DNA of 38,155 bases from Phycisphaerae bacterium (GTDB taxonomy: Bacteria > Planctomycetota > Phycisphaerae > Phycisphaerales > SM1A02). Numbering within the stretch: position 1 is the stretch's first letter; each line of letters starts with the position of its first letter. The notes under the pieces were generated by a model. The model ran no database searches. It was not told the origin of the DNA and saw only the letters and a list, made by a program, of their open reading frames with translations. The translations under genes and the position numbers were made by a program. Of the stretch, positions 5,625 to 14,854 are shown in pieces. The stretch is taken from the NCBI GenBank assembly GCA_002709755.1, contig PAQN01000028.1, forward strand, positions 4,180 to 42,334, given 5' to 3'.

Positions 5625-8600
5625 ATGCCCTGTTCCAAGCAACGTCTCTTCCTGCTCTCCGCTCTGCTGCTCGCTCTGGGCCTGCATGCGACACCTTCGA
5701 TCGCCGAAGACGTGGATCTGCCCAGATATCCATCGCTTTCTCCCGATGGGAAGGACGTCGTCTTCTCATGGCGAGGTGATCTCTGGCGAGTCGGCATCGA
5801 AGGCGGAAAAGCCGTCAGGCTGACGTCCCACCCCGGGGTCGACTCACGCTCCGCCTGGCACCCCGAGGGTTCCGTGCTCGTCTTCGAAAGCGATCGCGAC
5901 GGGTACAGGAACATCTGGTCGATCGATTCCAACGGCGATGGTCTTCGCCAGGTGGTCAAGGGTGACACCAGTGCGATTCTGTCCGGTTTCGGGGTGGGCT
6001 CCCATGGCGCGCCCACCGTCGTGTTCGACGGTCGATTCGAGAATGATTTCTATCGGGGCAGTCGACCCTACGAAGTGCCCCTCGACGGAGGCCAGCCCAC
6101 ACGTGTTCATGACGCCTTCGGCAGCGCGGCGCAGCGAAGCCCTGACGGATCGCGGGTCCTTTTCGAACGTGGACGGACTTCATGGACGCGACGTGGCAAG
6201 CGCGGTTCCGGAACGCGGGACATCTGGCTGCATTCACCCGAGGATGGATTCGTCCAGCTGACCACGTGGGACGGAAACGACGGGTTTCCCCACTGGCTTG
6301 ATGATGAGACGATGCTCTTCCTCTCCGATCGGGAACTCGGTGCGGTCAATCTGTATCGACAGTCGATCGTTCCCGGAGTCGAGATGGCCGAACGCCTCAC
6401 GGATTTCACAGAACATGATGTGACTGATTTCGACGTTTCAGCCGATGGTCGACAGGTCGTCCTGCAGAACTGGGACCGTCTGTACGCTCTGGATCTCGAT
6501 GACTCGATGACTCCCTCCGAGGTCAGGGCGATCGAGATCGAAGCCAACACCGACGGCCTCGATCGCGTGGTTCCCAAGAACGTCTCCAGCATGGTGACGG
6601 AAGCCGAACTGAGTCCTGACGGCAAGGTGATGGCGGTGGTGGCCTACGGCGATGTCTGGGTCCGAAACGTCGCGGATGGAAGCCCCACGCGTCGGGTCAC
6701 CGAATCACTCGCGCACGATCGTTCGATCAGCTGGAGTCCCGACGGACTGCGCCTCTATTTCACCAGTGATGAAGAGGGGACTGACGGGATCTACGCCGCC
6801 GAAGTCGCCCTCTCCAGAAGCGAGCTGCAGGAGAACTGGAGTTCGCTCATGGAGCCCGATTCGTCCGAGGACGAATCGACCGAGGCCGACGACGCTCGTG
6901 AAACCAAACCATCCGTCAAGCCGGCACTCGGCTTGAAGTCGAAGACCACTGAAACGAAGCCACCGACTCCTGAAGGTGGAAGTCTCACCGACATCTCCGG
7001 AGACTGGGTCGCCGAATGCGACATCCCGGGCACCGGCATGGTCACGGTGTTCCTCACCTTCGAAGCCGGTGATGACGGCGTCATGACGGTCACGTTTGAA
7101 GCCGCCGAGATCGTCAAGGGTGACGGTACGGTGACCATCGACCCCGAGACCGGAGCGCTCTCCGGTGAACTCGTCCTCGACAACACCATGCGGATTCCGC
7201 TCGAGGGTGTCAGTCGTGGCGGAACGCTCACCGGACAGCTGGATGCCGTCCAGGGCGTCATCGAGTTCACCGCGAGTCGCGTCGAGGCAGAGGATGAGAC
7301 GAACTCCAAAGACGACAAGGAAGACAAGGAAGACAAGGACGATGAGAAGACGGAGGATGACCCCAGGCTCGATCCCAAGCGATGGCATGATGCTCTGAGA
7401 TTCGACATCTCCGAAGTGCTGGTCGATGACAGGAACATCAGTGATCCGAAACCATCTCCCGATGGTCGCATGCTGGCGGTCCGTCAGGAGCGAGGTGACG
7501 TGCTGCTTCTCGATCTCGCCACCGGTGAGGAGACCATGGCTCGTGAGGGCTGGGATCGTGGCACGGAATTCGTCTGGGCTCCGGATTCGAGGGCACTGGC
7601 GGTCAGTCAGGCCGATCTCGACTTCAACTACGACATCTGGTTCGTTCCCGTGGATGACCCTGATGCCGCGGTCAATGTCTCCCGTCACCCCGACAACGAT
7701 CTGAGTCCCAGGTTCTCCGCCGACGGACGCATTCTGGTCTTCTCCAGTGAGCGGAAGGAGGAGGCCTATGACGTCTATCGGGTCTATCTCGATCGCACTC
7801 TGGACGGGCTGCTCGACACCGAACTGGACGAGTATTACGCGGATGCCAAGAAAGCGGTGAAGAAACGAAAGCCCGCCGAGCCCTGGTTGCCGGACCTCGC
7901 AGCCGATCTCGACGACGATGAGAACGAGGATTCAGAGAATGAATCCGGTGATGATCCGGAATGGACGCCTTCGCTCGACGACGCCTACAAGCGTCTCGAT
8001 CGAATGACCTCGTACACCGGTAACGAGCGAACCGTCCGCATCTCCCCCGCGGGTGATCAGATCGTCTTTCAACGTTCGAGTGGTCCCAGTGGAACGAGCG
8101 GCATCTGGTCGGTCGACTGGAAAGGCAACGGGGCCAAGCGCCTCGGATCCGGTTCCCTCGGTGAATTCACGCTCACCGGTGACAAGGTCGCCACTCAGGG
8201 TTCCAGTGGTGGTTGGTTGACGGCTTCCGGGTCGTCCAAGTCGATTCCGATCTCCGCTCGCATCGAGCTCGATCTCGAGGAGCAGTCGAGTCGCAAGTTC
8301 GACGAGGCCGCCAGAATCTTCGGCATGGTCTTCTACCACCCCGAGATGAAGGGTCGAGACTGGGAGAAGATCAAGCGTGACTACCACCAGCTGGCATCGC
8401 GAGCCTGGACCAGTGACGAGTTCAACTGGGTCGCCGCTCGGATGCTCGGTGAGATGAATGCATCGCACACCGGCATCAGAACGCCGGGGATGTCGTCTCC
8501 GACCAGGATGTCCCAGGGTCGACTGGGCACGCGCCACCGACGGGTCGACGACGGATTCGAGGTTCTCGAGGTCATTCCCGGTTCTCCCGCTGAGATCGGG

Positions 8601-9449
8601 CCCATGCCTCTGATGCCCGGTGATGTGATCCTCGCCATCGACGACGAGGCGTTCGAGATCGGCGACACGGTCGAGAGCCACCTGAGAGGGAAGTCGGGAC
8701 GTGAAGTCGTGCTTCGCATTCGCAGACCCTCCGTTGATACCGATGACTCCATCGAGATGCTCACGCTCATCGAGCCGATCTCGAGCGGTGCTCAGGCCGC
8801 GCTGATCTACGACGAACAACTCGAATCCATCAGCGCCCGTGTCGATGAACTCTCGGATGGACGACTCGGATACCTGCACATCAAGTCGATGGATCAGGCA
8901 TCTCTCGATGTCTTCGAACGGGACCTCTACGCCGCTGCCGAAGGGAAAGAGGGTCTTCTCGTCGATGTTCGAAACAACGGTGGCGGTTGGACCGCCGACC
9001 GGGTGTTCGCCTCTCTCGACGCGAGACCCCACGCCTACACCGTGCCGCGTGGCGCCGACTCCTCACGAACGGATGGATATCCGCAGGATCGTCTCTTCAT
9101 CCAGCGATACGTGCTTCCTGTGAACATGCTCTGCAACGAGAACAGTTATTCCAACGCCGAGATCATCTCTCATGGTTTCAAGGCTCTCGAACGCGGGACG
9201 CTCGTCGGAACGCAGACCACCGGATCGGTGATCTCCACCGGCCGCGCGACCTTGATCGACGGCACGACCATTCGTACGCCGTTCCGTGGTTGGTATCTTC
9301 TCGACGGGACCGACATGGAGAACAACGGTGCGATGCCGGACATCGTGGTTCCTCAGACGCCCGAGGATGAATCCATGGGCCACGACGAACAGCTGCAGCG
9401 GGCGGTCGAGGATCTTCTCGAGCGTCTTCCAGAGACTGCAGGAGAGTGA
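5625..9449 (+). CDS. Exported tricorn-type protease (S41B) with inserted beta domain
   Basis: This encodes 1274 residues, about 200 longer than archaeal tricorn; GGAG lies 7 nt before the ATG. A signal peptide (residues 1-27, ending PSIAED) suggests a periplasmic site, unlike the cytosolic archaeal enzyme. Residues about 30-400 are PD40/WD-like propeller repeats (YPSLSPDGKDVVFSW). About 450-555 is an extra beta-rich domain (GDWVAECDIPGTG...), then an acidic linker and a second propeller (about 590-860) with another acidic loop near 770. Next come the tricorn C1 region with ASHTG (His948), a PDZ domain (GFEVLEVIPGSPAE, about 980-1060) and the S41 core with SYSNAE (Ser1176) and MENNG (Glu1232). 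These match tricorn's His746/Ser965/Glu1023. The residue after the nucleophile is Asn1177 where tricorn has Asp966, so cleavage preference may differ. Confidence 0.92.
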   Translation: MPCSKQRLFLLSALLLALGLHATPSIAEDVDLPRYPSLSPDGKDVVFSWRGDLWRVGIEGGKAVRLTSHPGVDSRSAWHPEGSVLVFESDRDGYRNIWSIDSNGDGLRQVVKGDTSAILSGFGVGSHGAPTVVFDGRFENDFYRGSRPYEVPLDGGQPTRVHDAFGSAAQRSPDGSRVLFERGRTSWTRRGKRGSGTRDIWLHSPEDGFVQLTTWDGNDGFPHWLDDETMLFLSDRELGAVNLYRQSIVPGVEMAERLTDFTEHDVTDFDVSADGRQVVLQNWDRLYALDLDDSMTPSEVRAIEIEANTDGLDRVVPKNVSSMVTEAELSPDGKVMAVVAYGDVWVRNVADGSPTRRVTESLAHDRSISWSPDGLRLYFTSDEEGTDGIYAAEVALSRSELQENWSSLMEPDSSEDESTEADDARETKPSVKPALGLKSKTTETKPPTPEGGSLTDISGDWVAECDIPGTGMVTVFLTFEAGDDGVMTVTFEAAEIVKGDGTVTIDPETGALSGELVLDNTMRIPLEGVSRGGTLTGQLDAVQGVIEFTASRVEAEDETNSKDDKEDKEDKDDEKTEDDPRLDPKRWHDALRFDISEVLVDDRNISDPKPSPDGRMLAVRQERGDVLLLDLATGEETMAREGWDRGTEFVWAPDSRALAVSQADLDFNYDIWFVPVDDPDAAVNVSRHPDNDLSPRFSADGRILVFSSERKEEAYDVYRVYLDRTLDGLLDTELDEYYADAKKAVKKRKPAEPWLPDLAADLDDDENEDSENESGDDPEWTPSLDDAYKRLDRMTSYTGNERTVRISPAGDQIVFQRSSGPSGTSGIWSVDWKGNGAKRLGSGSLGEFTLTGDKVATQGSSGGWLTASGSSKSIPISARIELDLEEQSSRKFDEAARIFGMVFYHPEMKGRDWEKIKRDYHQLASRAWTSDEFNWVAARMLGEMNASHTGIRTPGMSSPTRMSQGRLGTRHRRVDDGFEVLEVIPGSPAEIGPMPLMPGDVILAIDDEAFEIGDTVESHLRGKSGREVVLRIRRPSVDTDDSIEMLTLIEPISSGAQAALIYDEQLESISARVDELSDGRLGYLHIKSMDQASLDVFERDLYAAAEGKEGLLVDVRNNGGGWTADRVFASLDARPHAYTVPRGADSSRTDGYPQDRLFIQRYVLPVNMLCNENSYSNAEIISHGFKALERGTLVGTQTTGSVISTGRATLIDGTTIRTPFRGWYLLDGTDMENNGAMPDIVVPQTPEDESMGHDEQLQRAVEDLLERLPETAGE
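7314..7340 (+). repeat. Tandem 9-base repeat encoding an acidic/lysine linker
   Basis: Three in-frame copies of a nine-base unit (GACAAGGAA, GACAAGGAA, GACAAGGAC) encode repeated Asp-Lys-Glu/Asp in the linker of the tricorn-type protease. The unit could expand or contract without breaking the frame. Confidence 0.8.
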
Positions 9450-9453
9450 CGGC

Positions 9454-10092
9454 TTGAGTGAATCACAGCGCGACTGGTTTCGTTACCGCCCCCATCCCTG
9501 GCATGGTCTCTCCACCGGGGATGATCCGCCGGCTCGAATCGATGCCTTCATCGAGCTCACGCCTTTCGACGTGATCAAGTACGAGATCGAGAAGCGGACC
9601 GGCTATCTCATGGTCGATCGTCCGCAGAGAACGAGTTCCACGCCTCCCACCCCGTACGGATTCATTCCCCGTACCTGGTGCGGACGAAGAGTCGCGGCGC
9701 TCTCACCGAACTCCACGCGAGGCGACGGAGATCCGCTCGACGTCTGCGTGCTGACCGAGAGACCGGTCGATCGCACCGAGATCCTTCTCAAGGCGCACGT
9801 CATCGGTGGAATCAGCATGATCGATGGTGGCGAAGCCGATGACAAGGTCATCGCGGTGATGGATCGCGATGCCGTCTACGGCGAGGCGAGCGACATCGGC
9901 GATATTCCGATCGCTCTGGTCGACCGGCTTGAACATTACTTCGCGACCTACAAGCTCGTGCCGGGTGTCAGCAGTGAGGTGACCATCGCAGGTGTCTACG
10001 GGCGAGAGCATGCCATGAAGGTCGTGAAGGCTTCGATCGAGGATTATTCCGAAGAATACGGACACCTTGGCAGTGAGTCGGACCAGGGCTGA
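9454..10092 (+). CDS. ppa: Inorganic pyrophosphatase, family I
   Basis: This encodes 212 residues from a TTG at 9454, with GGAG 9 nt upstream inside the end of the protease gene. Any in-frame ATG is either far inside that gene or too late (9610), where it would remove conserved residues. The enzyme hydrolyses pyrophosphate to two phosphates in the cytoplasm, driving biosynthesis. Family signatures are present: EIEKRTG (substrate-binding Lys), YGFIPRTWCG, the metal site GDGDPLDVCVL, DDKVIAV and HYFATYK. It is longer than the roughly 175-residue E. coli enzyme, mainly by an N-terminal stretch (WFRYRPHPWHGL). Starting 4 nt after the protease stop, it is probably co-transcribed and translationally coupled. 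Confidence 0.9.
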   Translation: MSESQRDWFRYRPHPWHGLSTGDDPPARIDAFIELTPFDVIKYEIEKRTGYLMVDRPQRTSSTPPTPYGFIPRTWCGRRVAALSPNSTRGDGDPLDVCVLTERPVDRTEILLKAHVIGGISMIDGGEADDKVIAVMDRDAVYGEASDIGDIPIALVDRLEHYFATYKLVPGVSSEVTIAGVYGREHAMKVVKASIEDYSEEYGHLGSESDQG

Positions 10093-10104: not shown

Positions 10105-11034
10105 TCAGCCGGGGTATTCATCGATCGAGGGATCCTCTTCAAGATCACTCGCGACCGCACCCGAGATCGATCTCGCCGCGTCCTCCGCGATCGTGTCGTA
10201 GATGCTCGCCAGCAGGCCCGTGATCGGAAACCGGCCTTCGAGTGGTGAAGGCCCCAGTCGCCTCAGCAAGGCCTGAGGAACATGCTCCGGCAGTGGCGCC
10301 GAGCGCGCCTCCGCCAGTGCGAATCCCGGTCTCCAGAACTCACCGATTCGATTCTCTATCGAGCCGACCGGGCTTGCGAGTCTGACGATGTCCGGATTCG
10401 TGTGTGCCTGAGACACGCCCTGGGTGCTGAGCATGCGGGCTTCCTGAAGATGGTTCCGGAACGTTTCAGCGTTGCGCCCTCGCATTTCGAGCGTGAGTTC
10501 CGGGAAGTCCTCCAGTCGTTCGAGAAGAACAAGGCAGGCCAGGACTTCATGCCAGGTTCTCTTCTTCGCGCCGTAGGTGGAGGTGATTCGGATCTCCTCA
10601 CGTGCGGGGATCAGAGGGTGGCCCGCCGCTTCGAATGGTTCCGCGACGATCTCGGGGAATTCGCCCGCAAGTAGCTTGGCTGCGTAGATCGCACCTCCCG
10701 CGGCGTTCTGAAGGACTCTCGTCCAGGCGGTGTCGTTCAACGACGGAAACTCGATTCGCACCGTGTGTGGTCTGGCTTCCACGCCCTGGATGACCGCTTC
10801 GACGAATCCGTTGCCAAGCTCGAATTTGGCGGTCTGGCCCGTTCGGCCGCATTCCTTCGCTTCCTCGAGCAGTGTCTCATCCTCATCGACACCCAGACGA
10901 TCCGCCCATTCACTGGCGGGCCATGGTCGGGGCCCGGCATCCTCCTTGCGTCGAAGTCGGATTCCGTTGCGCACCCGCCTGGGGCCTTCAGGTTTGGAGC
11001 GGGGCATGCCGCCCGGCGGTGGGGTGCTGCTCAT
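10105..11034 (-). CDS. SNF2-helicase partner of the SWIM-protein type, zinc cysteines lost
   Basis: This encodes 309 residues, and its ATG overlaps the helicase stop by 4 nt (ATGA at 11031-11034), so the two are co-translated. The layout follows SWIM zinc-finger proteins encoded beside bacterial SNF2 helicases: a basic N-terminus, FVEAVIQGVEARPHTVRIEF (residues about 76-95), WTRVLQNAAG, LLAGEFPE, LIPAREEIRI, then the finger, then LEMRGRN. The expected CxCx(n)CxH reads T-S-T, six residues, T-W-H at residues 151-162 (bases 10549-10584): all three cysteines are Thr and only His162 remains. It probably no longer binds zinc by this motif. It may recruit or regulate the helicase on DNA; that role is inferred from gene order. 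Confidence 0.7.
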   Translation of the reverse strand: MSSTPPPGGMPRSKPEGPRRVRNGIRLRRKEDAGPRPWPASEWADRLGVDEDETLLEEAKECGRTGQTAKFELGNGFVEAVIQGVEARPHTVRIEFPSLNDTAWTRVLQNAAGGAIYAAKLLAGEFPEIVAEPFEAAGHPLIPAREEIRITSTYGAKKRTWHEVLACLVLLERLEDFPELTLEMRGRNAETFRNHLQEARMLSTQGVSQAHTNPDIVRLASPVGSIENRIGEFWRPGFALAEARSAPLPEHVPQALLRRLGPSPLEGRFPITGLLASIYDTIAEDAARSISGAVASDLEEDPSIDEYPG

Positions 11035-14000
11035 GGCGAGCTCTCTTCCAGTGTTTCATGACGTATGGAAAGGATGTCCCGGAGTTGTCCTGTCGAGAGT
11101 TCCGTCAGCCATGACTCGCCTGCACCGATGATGCGTGCCGCCAGTTCGGTCTTCTGTTCGATCATCTGATCGATTCTCTCTTCAAGGGTTCCGGCGCTGA
11201 TCATCTTGTGAACATTGACGGTTCGGTCCTGCCCGATTCGAAACGCCCGGTCCGTGGCCTGATTCTCCACCGCAGGGTTCCACCATCGGTCGTAGTGGAA
11301 GACGTGATTCGCCGCGGTGAGGTTCAGTCCCACGCCACCGGCCTTCAGGCTGAGGATGAAGATGGGACACGACGGATCCTTCGACTGGAAGCGATCGACC
11401 AGCTGGTCTCGTCGCAGCTGGGGTGTGCCGCCGTGCAGGAACAGGGGTTCGATGTCGAAGGCATGCCTGATCATCGAAACCAGCAGATGGCCCATTCTTC
11501 TGTATTGCGTGAAAATCAGAGCCCGATCCTGGGTCGCGGTGACCTCTTCGAGCATTTCCATCATTCGTGTCGATTTTCCCGAGCGCAGGGGGTCGATTTC
11601 CCCCGTCTCGAGTCCGATCGACTCGAGATAGTGTGCAGGGTGATTGCAGATCTGCTTCAGTTTGACCAGGGATGCGAGCACGAGTCCTCTGCGTCGGATC
11701 CCTTCGGCGCTGTCCACCTTGCGAAGCATCTCCTCCACGACCGCATCGTAGAGCTGCACCTGCTCTTCGGAGGGTGTGACGTTCTGCTTGCTCTGGACAA
11801 GCGGGGGAAGGTCGGTGATGACGTTCGGGTCGGTCTTCAGTCTTCGAAGAATGAAGGGCTGGACCAGCTCACGAAGCCGACGCGCCTGTCGCTCGTCACG
11901 ATGTCGTTCGATCGGCACGGCGAATCGTTTTCTGAAATCACCATTGCTTCCGAGGAAGCCCGGGCAGCAGAATTCCATGATCGACCACAGTTCCGCCAGT
12001 CTGTTCTCGACCGGGGTACCGGTCAGCGCGATCCTGCGGTGGGTCTTGAGAGAGCGGATCGCCGCCGTCTGCTTCGTCGGCGGATTCTTGATGTGCTGGG
12101 CTTCATCCAGAGTGACTCGCCACCAGTTGATGTTTCGAAGCAGCTCCTGATCACGTGTGACCAGCGCGTACGTGGTGACGATGACGTCCGTCTTCTCCGC
12201 AAGCTCGATGAACTCGTCACCCAGCGGTCTGGTCGCGCCATGCTGGAGATGAACCGTGAGCTCCGGTGCGAATCTCGAGAATTCACGTTTCCAGTTGCCG
12301 AGCACGGACATCGGAACCACCAGCAGCGTCGGTCCGATGTGCGCCGGATCCGCGGCCTGCTGTCGCTCGTGCTGGAGCAGGGCGATCAGTTGAATGGTCT
12401 TGCCCAGGCCCATGTCGTCGGCGAGGCAGGCGCCCAGTCCGAATCGATCCAGGAACGCGAGCCAGCTGAGTCCCGAGAGCTGGTATGGACGAAGCTCTCC
12501 CTGGAAGAGTTCCGGCTGTTCGAGATTCTCGATGGTGCGCTCGCCGGTCTCCTGATCGATCTCTCCGAAGATCTGTGCCACCCACCCGGTGGCCTTCATG
12601 CCGAGAATCGGAATCGGAATCTCCGCTTTCTCGACCCCATGCGCAAGACGCATGGCCTCGAGGACGGTCATCTCTCCGCCGGGATGTTCCTCGATGAATT
12701 TCGCGGCGCCTTCGACGTCTTCCTCCCGGATCTCGACCCAGGTCCCGTTGATGCGCACCAGAGGCGCACCTTGAGCCGCGAGCTTGCGGAATTCCTCGAC
12801 CGAGACGGGTTTGTCTCCAAGCGTGATCTGCCATGAGTAGTCGATCAGGGTGTGCAACCCGAGTTCGCCTTCTCGTCCCGGACCCGCTCCCCATTGACCG
12901 TTCTCCAGTTCGGACAATGGTTGAGAATCCACCACCATGTGGGCTGCCAGCCGGCTGCGAACCTGACCCCACCATGAGGGGACGAGGACCTCTATGCCGC
13001 TTTCCTGAAGAATCGGTCTGGTCTCACGCAGGAATTCATATGCCTTGGCAAGCGGCAGATCGATGCCGCAGGGTGAGGCATCTTCCAGTGACGATTCGAG
13101 AATCGGGTACAGACGTGCCGCTCTGGCGAGTTCGGCGAGCAGGACATCCGCGGCGGTCTCGCTTTCATTGCCGATCTGCGAGAGCATTCTGTCGCCGACC
13201 GAATCCGGATCCCAGATCTGTTCGGCATCGATCACGATCGGCGGGTCGTCGGTCGTCACGAGATGGAATGAGAGGCGCCAGGGTCCTGTCGGAACCTCGT
13301 CCGGATCATCGCTCGTGGTGAAAGGCTCGGAAAGTTGAAGACAGAGTCTGACCATTCGTGAGGCGCTTCTGTCATCGAGATGGGAGATCCACTGCCGTGC
13401 CGAGCGAAGGATCTGTGCTTCGCCGCCATGGATGACCGGTATGGCGTTGTCTTCATGAAGAAGCCCCGACAGCCAGCCAGCGTGCTGATCCGCGAGAAGA
13501 TCACGATCCTCGAGGGCATCCGGATAATCATCCGCGATGAGAATCCTGCGAACCGCCCGGTCGCACATCGTCCGAAGGGCGTTTTCCATCAGGCTCCATG
13601 CATCGCTGTCACCGTTCTCCTCGATCGCACAGACGATCGCGGGCGTGGATGAAAGCAGGTGGGCGGCTCGTGCACTGGTCTCACGATCGTTCAGCCATGG
13701 AAGCCAGTTCGCCCTGAGGATTCCGTCGCGTTGCTGGATCATCGTTGGTATGAAGCGTTGTTCTGCCAGCAGTTCCAGCACCAGGCGTCCGGTCTCGATC
13801 CAGTACCGTGCGTCATGACCCAGCGTCGCGTCCTTGGCGGGAAGCCCTTCCTCAAGTCGCACGAGGCATTCAGCCGCATGGCTCGCCTTGATCTTCAACA
13901 GCGGGATCCTGACGGGGTGAAGTTCGAGACCATCGATGGAGTCGAGACTCCATCCGAGCTCCGAACCGAGTCGCTCGCTCGGCTCCACCAGAAGACCATC

Positions 14001-14438
14001 ATCGTTCAGGCGGTGGGGAAGACGCATCGTGAGCGTGCTACTGCCTTCCACCATCTCTTCAGTGATCACACCTGCGTCGAGAAGCAGCGATTCGAGCGCT
14101 CTCGGGCTGGCGGCGTAGGCGTGATCGACCGTCGGAATCGAATTGAGTTGTCGGGCCGGGTGCCCGGATCGTTCAGTCGTCGAAGTGGACTCTTCGGCAG
14201 ACGCCACGCCCGGGTCGGTCTCGATCTCTTCAAGGGTCGCTTCGAGATCATCACCGGCATGAATCTCCCGGCTCCCCGGACCCAGCAGGTCATTCAGTGC
14301 GAGTCGTGCATCGGATGCCGATTCCGCCCAGATATGAATTCCATTGTCTGCCCAGGCGGTGTGAAAGACCAACATTCTTCGCGCAACCTCCGAGGCCACA
14401 TGATGTTCTTGTTCGAACGGATCATGATGTGAACCCAT
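11031..14438 (-). CDS. SNF2-family DNA helicase/translocase (HepA/RapA-like)
   Basis: This encodes about 1135 residues. The ATG at 14438 follows an in-frame TTG at 14441. An ATG at 14375, with GGAGG 11 nt upstream, is also plausible because family members begin near that point (MLVFHTAW). Residues 1-600 are the bacterial SNF2-associated region (IHIWAE...; QGAPLVRINGTWVEI). The ATPase follows: LADDMGLGKTIQLIALL (Walker A, about residue 670), DEAQH (about 777), LTGTPVENRLAELWS, and in the second lobe LKAGGVGLNLTAANHV and ATDRAFRIGQ. The set defines a complete SF2/SNF2 motor that moves on double-stranded DNA or remodels protein-DNA complexes. The partner gene at 10105 follows in the same operon. 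Confidence 0.92.
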   Translation of the reverse strand: MGSHHDPFEQEHHVASEVARRMLVFHTAWADNGIHIWAESASDARLALNDLLGPGSREIHAGDDLEATLEEIETDPGVASAEESTSTTERSGHPARQLNSIPTVDHAYAASPRALESLLLDAGVITEEMVEGSSTLTMRLPHRLNDDGLLVEPSERLGSELGWSLDSIDGLELHPVRIPLLKIKASHAAECLVRLEEGLPAKDATLGHDARYWIETGRLVLELLAEQRFIPTMIQQRDGILRANWLPWLNDRETSARAAHLLSSTPAIVCAIEENGDSDAWSLMENALRTMCDRAVRRILIADDYPDALEDRDLLADQHAGWLSGLLHEDNAIPVIHGGEAQILRSARQWISHLDDRSASRMVRLCLQLSEPFTTSDDPDEVPTGPWRLSFHLVTTDDPPIVIDAEQIWDPDSVGDRMLSQIGNESETAADVLLAELARAARLYPILESSLEDASPCGIDLPLAKAYEFLRETRPILQESGIEVLVPSWWGQVRSRLAAHMVVDSQPLSELENGQWGAGPGREGELGLHTLIDYSWQITLGDKPVSVEEFRKLAAQGAPLVRINGTWVEIREEDVEGAAKFIEEHPGGEMTVLEAMRLAHGVEKAEIPIPILGMKATGWVAQIFGEIDQETGERTIENLEQPELFQGELRPYQLSGLSWLAFLDRFGLGACLADDMGLGKTIQLIALLQHERQQAADPAHIGPTLLVVPMSVLGNWKREFSRFAPELTVHLQHGATRPLGDEFIELAEKTDVIVTTYALVTRDQELLRNINWWRVTLDEAQHIKNPPTKQTAAIRSLKTHRRIALTGTPVENRLAELWSIMEFCCPGFLGSNGDFRKRFAVPIERHRDERQARRLRELVQPFILRRLKTDPNVITDLPPLVQSKQNVTPSEEQVQLYDAVVEEMLRKVDSAEGIRRRGLVLASLVKLKQICNHPAHYLESIGLETGEIDPLRSGKSTRMMEMLEEVTATQDRALIFTQYRRMGHLLVSMIRHAFDIEPLFLHGGTPQLRRDQLVDRFQSKDPSCPIFILSLKAGGVGLNLTAANHVFHYDRWWNPAVENQATDRAFRIGQDRTVNVHKMISAGTLEERIDQMIEQKTELAARIIGAGESWLTELSTGQLRDILSIRHETLEESSP

Positions 14439-14478
14439 CAACTCGCCCGTTCCATGCTGGGCGGATTGGATTCGATAA

Positions 14479-14551
14479 TGATTCCGCTGGGGCTCGAACC
14501 CAGGACCTAGCGATTAAAAGTCGCGTGCTCTACCAACTGAGCTACGGAATC
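14479..14551 (-). tRNA. tRNA-Lys(UUU)
   Basis: This is a 73-nt cloverleaf with a 7-bp acceptor stem (GATTCCG with CGGAATC), a 4-bp D stem (GCTC/GAGC), the anticodon loop CTTTTAA with anticodon TTT, and a 5-bp T stem with TTCGAGC loop. The discriminator is A and CCA is not encoded. The outermost anticodon-stem pair (27-43) is a C-U mismatch. Confidence 0.95.
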
Positions 14552-14854
14552 AGGAATTCCCGATTCTAGCGGATATCCCATGAATTTCCCCACCAACCCC
14601 CCCTCCACATTTGATTCAGAGGCGAAAAATGCCGGATCTAGGTCCGGAAGGGGGAGGAATACGTCGTTCTCGGTGGATCAGTGTGGACTCGACCCCGTTC
14701 CCTGCCGATTGAAGATGTGCCTCCTTGAAAATCAAGGGGTCATGGTTTCGATTCAGCCACTCGATCACCTGTCCGAGCGCCACGACACCGGCGTTCCGGC
14801 AAGCCCGATCCTCTCCGTCTTTCGATGGAATGCATGCACTTTCAGGGAGCTTCT
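14552..14854. other. Non-coding gap between tRNA-Lys and the TolB-like gene
   Basis: No supported gene is seen in 303 nt. It holds the putative tRNA -10 box, a C-rich run (14597-14606) facing a G-rich run (14648-14657), an imperfect palindrome at 14632-14647 and a small perfect hairpin at 14723-14737 (6-bp stem, AAA loop). It presumably carries the promoters of both flanking genes, which diverge. Confidence 0.5.
14563..14568 (-). promoter_or_regulatory. Possible -10 box for tRNA-Lys
   Basis: TAGAAT on the minus strand lies 11 nt upstream of the mature tRNA 5' end. No convincing -35 box was found at the usual distance, so this is tentative. Confidence 0.3.

Follow-up and report, generated by a model that had tools for sequence, protein, structure and literature searches.

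SNF2-SWIM gene pairs are known in bacteria, and the pair analysed here raises the question of what becomes of a SWIM partner whose zinc ligands have been replaced. The pair is located in the window, the whole stretch of 38,155 nucleotides from a Phycisphaerae bacterium that was analysed (contig PAQN01000028.1). The SNF2-family ATPase (11031..14441, minus strand, 1136 aa) was recognised by the Pfam domains PF00176 (E 1.7e-70), DUF3670 (PF12419) and Helicase_C (PF00271, E 1.8e-20), and its catalytic motifs, namely Walker A, DEAx and motif VI, were all intact. The partner gene is an open reading frame of 309 codons on the minus strand, running from 11034 to 10105 (10105..11034), and its 309-aa product was assigned to the SWIM family, with a degenerate zinc site, on the basis of the reading frame, the homologue alignment, the AlphaFold2 (AF2) model and VIA-align. 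The junction was read, and a 4-nt overlap (ATGA) was found to join the SNF2 stop with the partner start (..GCCATGAGC..). At nearly every homologous locus examined, an SNF2 gene likewise adjoined the partner gene. A preliminary description had taken the protein for the SWIM partner of the SNF2 gene, and both the overlap and the alignment to SWIM homologues agreed with it. Nothing in Pfam or NCBIfam matched the partner, and PF04434 was unmatched in the Pfam scan even at E up to 10. When a collection was scanned with this single protein, two relatives were obtained, both from uncultured planctomycetes. As for the surroundings, a tRNA-Lys (ttt) gene (14478-14552, minus) is found on the strand of the SNF2 gene, 36 bases ahead of its start, and a tyrosine recombinase/phage integrase family protein (PF00589; 17138-18199, plus) is encoded about 2.6 kb past it. 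On the other side, a Tricorn-like protease (PD40, S41, Tricorn_C1; 5625-9449, plus) is followed by an inorganic pyrophosphatase (9286-10092, plus), which is convergent with the SWIM gene, their ends being 12 bases apart.

The ligand columns were determined by alignment of the window protein to its intact sister (L002/L175, genome G004, 88% identical) and to 132 intact homologues. They fell at residues 152, 154, 160 and 162 with the spacing CxCx5CxH. The knuckle of the sister reads T-C152-T-C154-GETER-C160-W-H162, while that of the window protein (10549..10581, minus) reads T-S152-T-Y154-GAKKR-T160-W-H162, giving S-x-Y-x5-T-x-H in place of CxCx(n)CxH. The corresponding codons were TCC, TAC, ACC and CAT in the window against TGC, TGC, TGC and CAT in the sister, and the third replacement, C160T, comprised two base substitutions. 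The segment 10549-10584, which had been proposed as the SWIM zinc knuckle from the letters alone, was thus confirmed to lie there. The ligands, however, had been placed at 151, 153, 160 and 162, in a frame that was off by one residue, and the homologue alignment ruled out residues 151 and 153, which are likewise Thr in the intact sister. In the same way, the three matched Thr for Cys of the preliminary description proved to be Ser152, Tyr154 and Thr160, only the third being Thr, and a conserved Thr, looked for in the aligned ligand columns of the homologues, was not found. The only Cys left in the window protein were Cys62 and Cys167, neither at the knuckle. Compared with the sister, 8 of 12 positions differed in residues 149-160 and 21 of 267 elsewhere (Fisher p = 2e-6, a post hoc value, the segment having been picked after the finding was seen). 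Judging from the alignment, the 88% identity to the sister and the 132 aligned homologues, the partner shares descent with zinc-intact SWIM proteins. As the preliminary description had stated, its zinc site is incomplete, and we infer that the protein itself would contain no zinc.

The fold was then considered through predicted models. The AF2 model of the window protein had a mean pLDDT of 82, with values above 90 through most of residues 136-176, which form the predicted SWIM core (10507..10629, minus) of a strand (149-152), a knuckle loop and a helix (161-176); much of the tail was of low confidence (pLDDT 50-66). The model of a member of the zinc-free clade described below (G181) had a mean pLDDT of 79 and displayed the same strand and helix elements. 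Zinc-intact members were included in the AF2 input alignments, and the models therefore speak for compatibility with the fold and are not measured structures. Foldseek returned nothing below E 0.26, and a sequence search of solved structures gave no relative (best profile E 1.2). TbRSP62, a weak and unlinked match of one intact member in the solved-structure search, was rejected. When Foldseek's low-ranked candidates were realigned by VIA-align, human ZSWIM8 was the best match of the window model (Z 6.4, rmsd 3.6 A over 95 residues). Residues 40-187 of the window protein superposed on ZSWIM8 113-221, a range containing the ZSWIM8 SWIM domain, residues 172-208 (PMC13083262). With the two zinc-less models alike, ZSWIM8 came first, at Z 6.4 and 8.3, the next rows being at 3.9 and 3.1. 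The predictions suggested that the window protein has the strand-knuckle-helix core of SWIM domains, and the earlier view that the fold is kept was upheld to that extent.

In order to see how the ligands behave across the group, homologues were collected first among relatives and later across the family and order, and 161 of them had readable ligand columns. C-C-C-H was kept in 132 of these, and at least one ligand was gone in 29. A tree was computed with the motif columns left out, and on it the ligand losses required at least seven changes, the placement of some long branches (G013, G022, G025 and G034) being unsure. Within the genus of the window species the states were SYTH (window, G000), CYCH, CCCH, CCCH and CGSH, and His162 was retained in the window, in the genus and in the f2 cases. 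Tyr154 is common to the window and G001, and this may be by descent or parallel; the SNF2 DNA tree grouped G000 with G004 (84/84), and the protein tree left the grouping open. PF04434 was matched by a good part of the zinc-intact relatives and by none of the zinc-less ones scanned. In G034, the loss of ligands was accompanied by an in-frame stop within the matched range. A search of the window genome for a substitute SWIM protein elsewhere gave a best match of E 0.12, below the cut-off. A second SWIM match above the Pfam cut-off was located elsewhere in the genomes of G025 (state LAER; C1:193036-193116, L180) and G022 (state YGPT; C17:8255-8347, L181). From the aligned states, the replacements in the window protein look like the stepwise loss of a dispensable site.

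A different picture was obtained for 18 sequences from five genera (g5, g8, g53, g60 and g61; loci L160-L172, L139, L146, L148, L151, L032 and L035), which formed one clade (SH-aLRT 97) with all four ligands gone. Arg occupied the His column in 18 of 18, and Trp was found six residues on, again in all of them, at a position where the intact proteins have mostly Tyr, His, Ala or Phe. These genes have SNF2 neighbours, almost all of which showed the catalytic motifs, and the within-genus dN/dS was about 0.06-0.2. The SWIM domain is under purifying selection in this clade, and it is therefore not dispensable there. In two of the loci, L032 (4902-8189, G008) and L035 (5740-9344, G011), the SNF2 frame is in two pieces where congeners have one long frame, which may reflect assembly error or decay. 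In this clade, then, a SWIM protein that has no zinc ligands is stably maintained.

The best conserved part of the partner was not the SWIM domain. The C-terminal tail (residues 226-290, FWRPG...ALLRRLGPSPLEGRFPITGLLASIYD; 10165..10359, minus) was delimited by tail-only ORFs, by alignment A4 and by its conservation, the highest in the protein, and its core, residues 251-282, carried 3.4-3.8 bits per column versus 2.2-2.9 elsewhere. It had no match in Pfam. In a class-wide profile search, f8, f11 and f19 were matched only at profile positions of about 190-277, and there fifteen loci (L214-L228) were found to contain small ORFs, some of only 70 codons, homologous to the tail and without SWIM. 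Most of these directly follow an orthologous long SNF2, at two loci with an ATGA overlap with its stop; at L216, L221, L223 and L224 the tail ORF was present and SNF2 was not among the matches listed for the stretch read. The tail-only ORFs that were scanned gave no significant Pfam match. Their dN/dS was 0.165 and 0.043 in two pairs, two further pairs being saturated. A different, shorter SNF2 occurs in other Phycisphaerae beside a classical SWIM protein (CSCPDWAxMCKH), whose match to the profile was confined to the SWIM part. The partner of other planctomycete classes is full-length, its CxC..CxH being intact and its tail recognisable. The SNF2 tree gave the tail-only clade (99/97) as sister to the fusion clade (100/99), and the zinc-intact SWIM-plus-tail proteins of other classes lay outside. 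The ancestral form would be zinc-intact and full-length, because such proteins occur in other planctomycete classes, outside both clades. The simplest history is that the SWIM domain of this ancestor was lost in one branch and its ligands were lost repeatedly in the other.

Selection on the pair was estimated next. The whole-protein dN/dS was 0.043 and 0.059 for the partner and 0.040 and 0.051 for SNF2; by region, the tail, at 0.012-0.024, was one of the slowest parts and the SWIM core ranged over 0.046-0.159, all of these being approximate values since NG86 dS was near or above 1. With dS of about 1 between species and dN/dS of about 0.05, a sequencing error or a pseudogene is disfavoured. 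The earlier statement that the gene is maintained and not decaying was borne out by these values (0.04-0.06), by the open frame and by the retained 4-nt overlap.

Taken together, the account that we hold to be somewhat probable is that of a dedicated SNF2 partner in which the tail is essential and the SWIM domain erodes without a need for zinc. The ancestral partner would have combined a C-terminal tail with a SWIM domain at the N-terminus, the zinc site of which was C-C-C-H. In Phycisphaerae the tail would be the essential part, most likely docking on, or regulating, the SNF2 ATPase, and the SWIM domain would have turned into an accessory fold that tolerates zinc loss and is dispensable altogether in some lineages. 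Such a fold would no longer need zinc, and the ligands would therefore have been lost independently many times, with varied replacements. The window species would represent a recent intermediate with three of four ligands gone and the fold probably kept, the five-genus clade would be a settled zinc-free SWIM with a newly fixed Arg and Trp, and the sister SNF2 clade would retain the tail only. The partner and the ATPase presumably work together in transactions of DNA or of RNA polymerase. A further proposal, to which we give an even chance, is that this SNF2 branch has as its true cofactor the small, as yet unnamed tail domain of about 45-60 residues (L..LGPSPF..G.FP..GFLA..Y), which stands by itself after SNF2 in three Phycisphaerae families and elsewhere is joined to the end of a SWIM domain, the SWIM zinc finger being lost or optional. 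If so, the textbook SNF2-SWIM pair would be an SNF2-tail pair in these bacteria.

The other explanations were weighed against the same observations. The preliminary description had favoured the view that the window species itself maintains the module in a zinc-free form, with the three replacements adaptive and matched. The retention of frame, overlap and purifying selection fits this idea, and a zinc-free SWIM is indeed stable in the separate clade of five genera and 18 sequences, where that part of the claim held; for the window species it did not, the replacements being Ser/Tyr/Thr instead of three Thr and different in every close relative (CYCH, CCCH, CGSH). Moreover, the loop of residues 149-160 was the fastest-changing segment against the intact sister (8/12), as relaxed constraint predicts, and this explanation appears unlikely. 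The opposite case, in which the gene is at an early stage of decay in the window species and ligand loss is the first sign of its disappearance, could draw on G034, with its lost ligands and in-frame stop, and on the tail-only lineages, which show that a SWIM domain can vanish. We consider it quite improbable given the dN/dS of 0.04-0.06 over the whole protein, the near-invariant tail, the intact frame and overlap and the intact SNF2 partner.

It could also be supposed that metal is still bound by His162 in a site that further side chains complete, such as that of His139 or those of SNF2 residues. His162 is kept throughout the genus, the window species included, and in the f2 cases, but the two remaining Cys (62 and 167) are both off the knuckle and the His is also lost in the clade of 18, so that we hold residual metal binding to be very unlikely. 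It was considered as well that errors of assembly or sequencing in a metagenome bin had produced the replacements, the window genome being in 59 contigs with a completeness of 92.21% and one relative being a single-cell or metagenome assembly. C154Y was, however, also present in an independently assembled relative, the double base change of C160T is needed, and ligand loss recurs in many genomes, which makes an artefact highly improbable. The dedicated partner with an essential tail and an eroding SWIM domain remains the reading that we prefer.

For the function of such SNF2-associated SWIM proteins, the tail is the part to which the loss series points. Beside one and the same ATPase, natural variants run from the full site, by way of the loss of one, two, three or all four ligands, to the tail alone. 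This series suggests that a zinc-finger fold can long outlive its zinc ligands, with identifiable replacements such as Arg at the His position and a new Trp. Models of anti-phage defence systems were matched by the SNF2 protein only through its ATPase core: PADLOC matches covered this core, no system genes were seen to adjoin it, and the scores against the NCBIfam equivalogs lay far under the cut-offs, at 282 bits versus 1500 for Zorya ZorD, 79 versus 950 for DISARM DrmD and 29 versus 500 for DpdE. A literature search of incomplete coverage gave no account of planctomycete SWIM partners that are zinc-less, and none in which the tail is treated as a conserved element in its own right. We regard the zinc-less partners and the conserved tail as a variant of the known SNF2-SWIM pairs, one that we have not found described.

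Among known systems, the closest is the bacterial SNF2-adjacent SWIM protein (PF04434), which the window protein resembles in gene order, in the overlap with SNF2 and in the predicted strand-knuckle-helix core, and most of whose homologues are C-C-C-H. The window protein differs from it in having no PF04434 match and three of four ligands replaced, and its conserved C-terminal tail is unmatched in the classical SWIM proteins beside the short SNF2 of other Phycisphaerae. In Bacillus subtilis, the neighbour of YwqA is YwqB, which we take to be a SWIM protein. An action on stalled RNA polymerase has been proposed for YwqA (Swi2/Snf2), which is poorly characterised, and for HepA (PMC7385302); YwqA is, like the window SNF2, a bacterial SNF2-family translocase, and zinc loss is not described for its system. 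Human ZSWIM8 (PDB 9RWZ), the best structural match of both zinc-less predicted models, is a zinc-binding subunit of a cullin-3 ligase (PMC13083262), and the likeness is structural with no functional link implied. The Shu2/SWS1 family has a conserved SWIM motif, CxC...Xn...CxHxxA, and partners a RAD51 paralogue (PMC6316741). It is similar to the window protein as a SWIM-motif partner of a member of a DNA-acting ATPase family, but its ATPase is a RAD51 paralogue and not SNF2.
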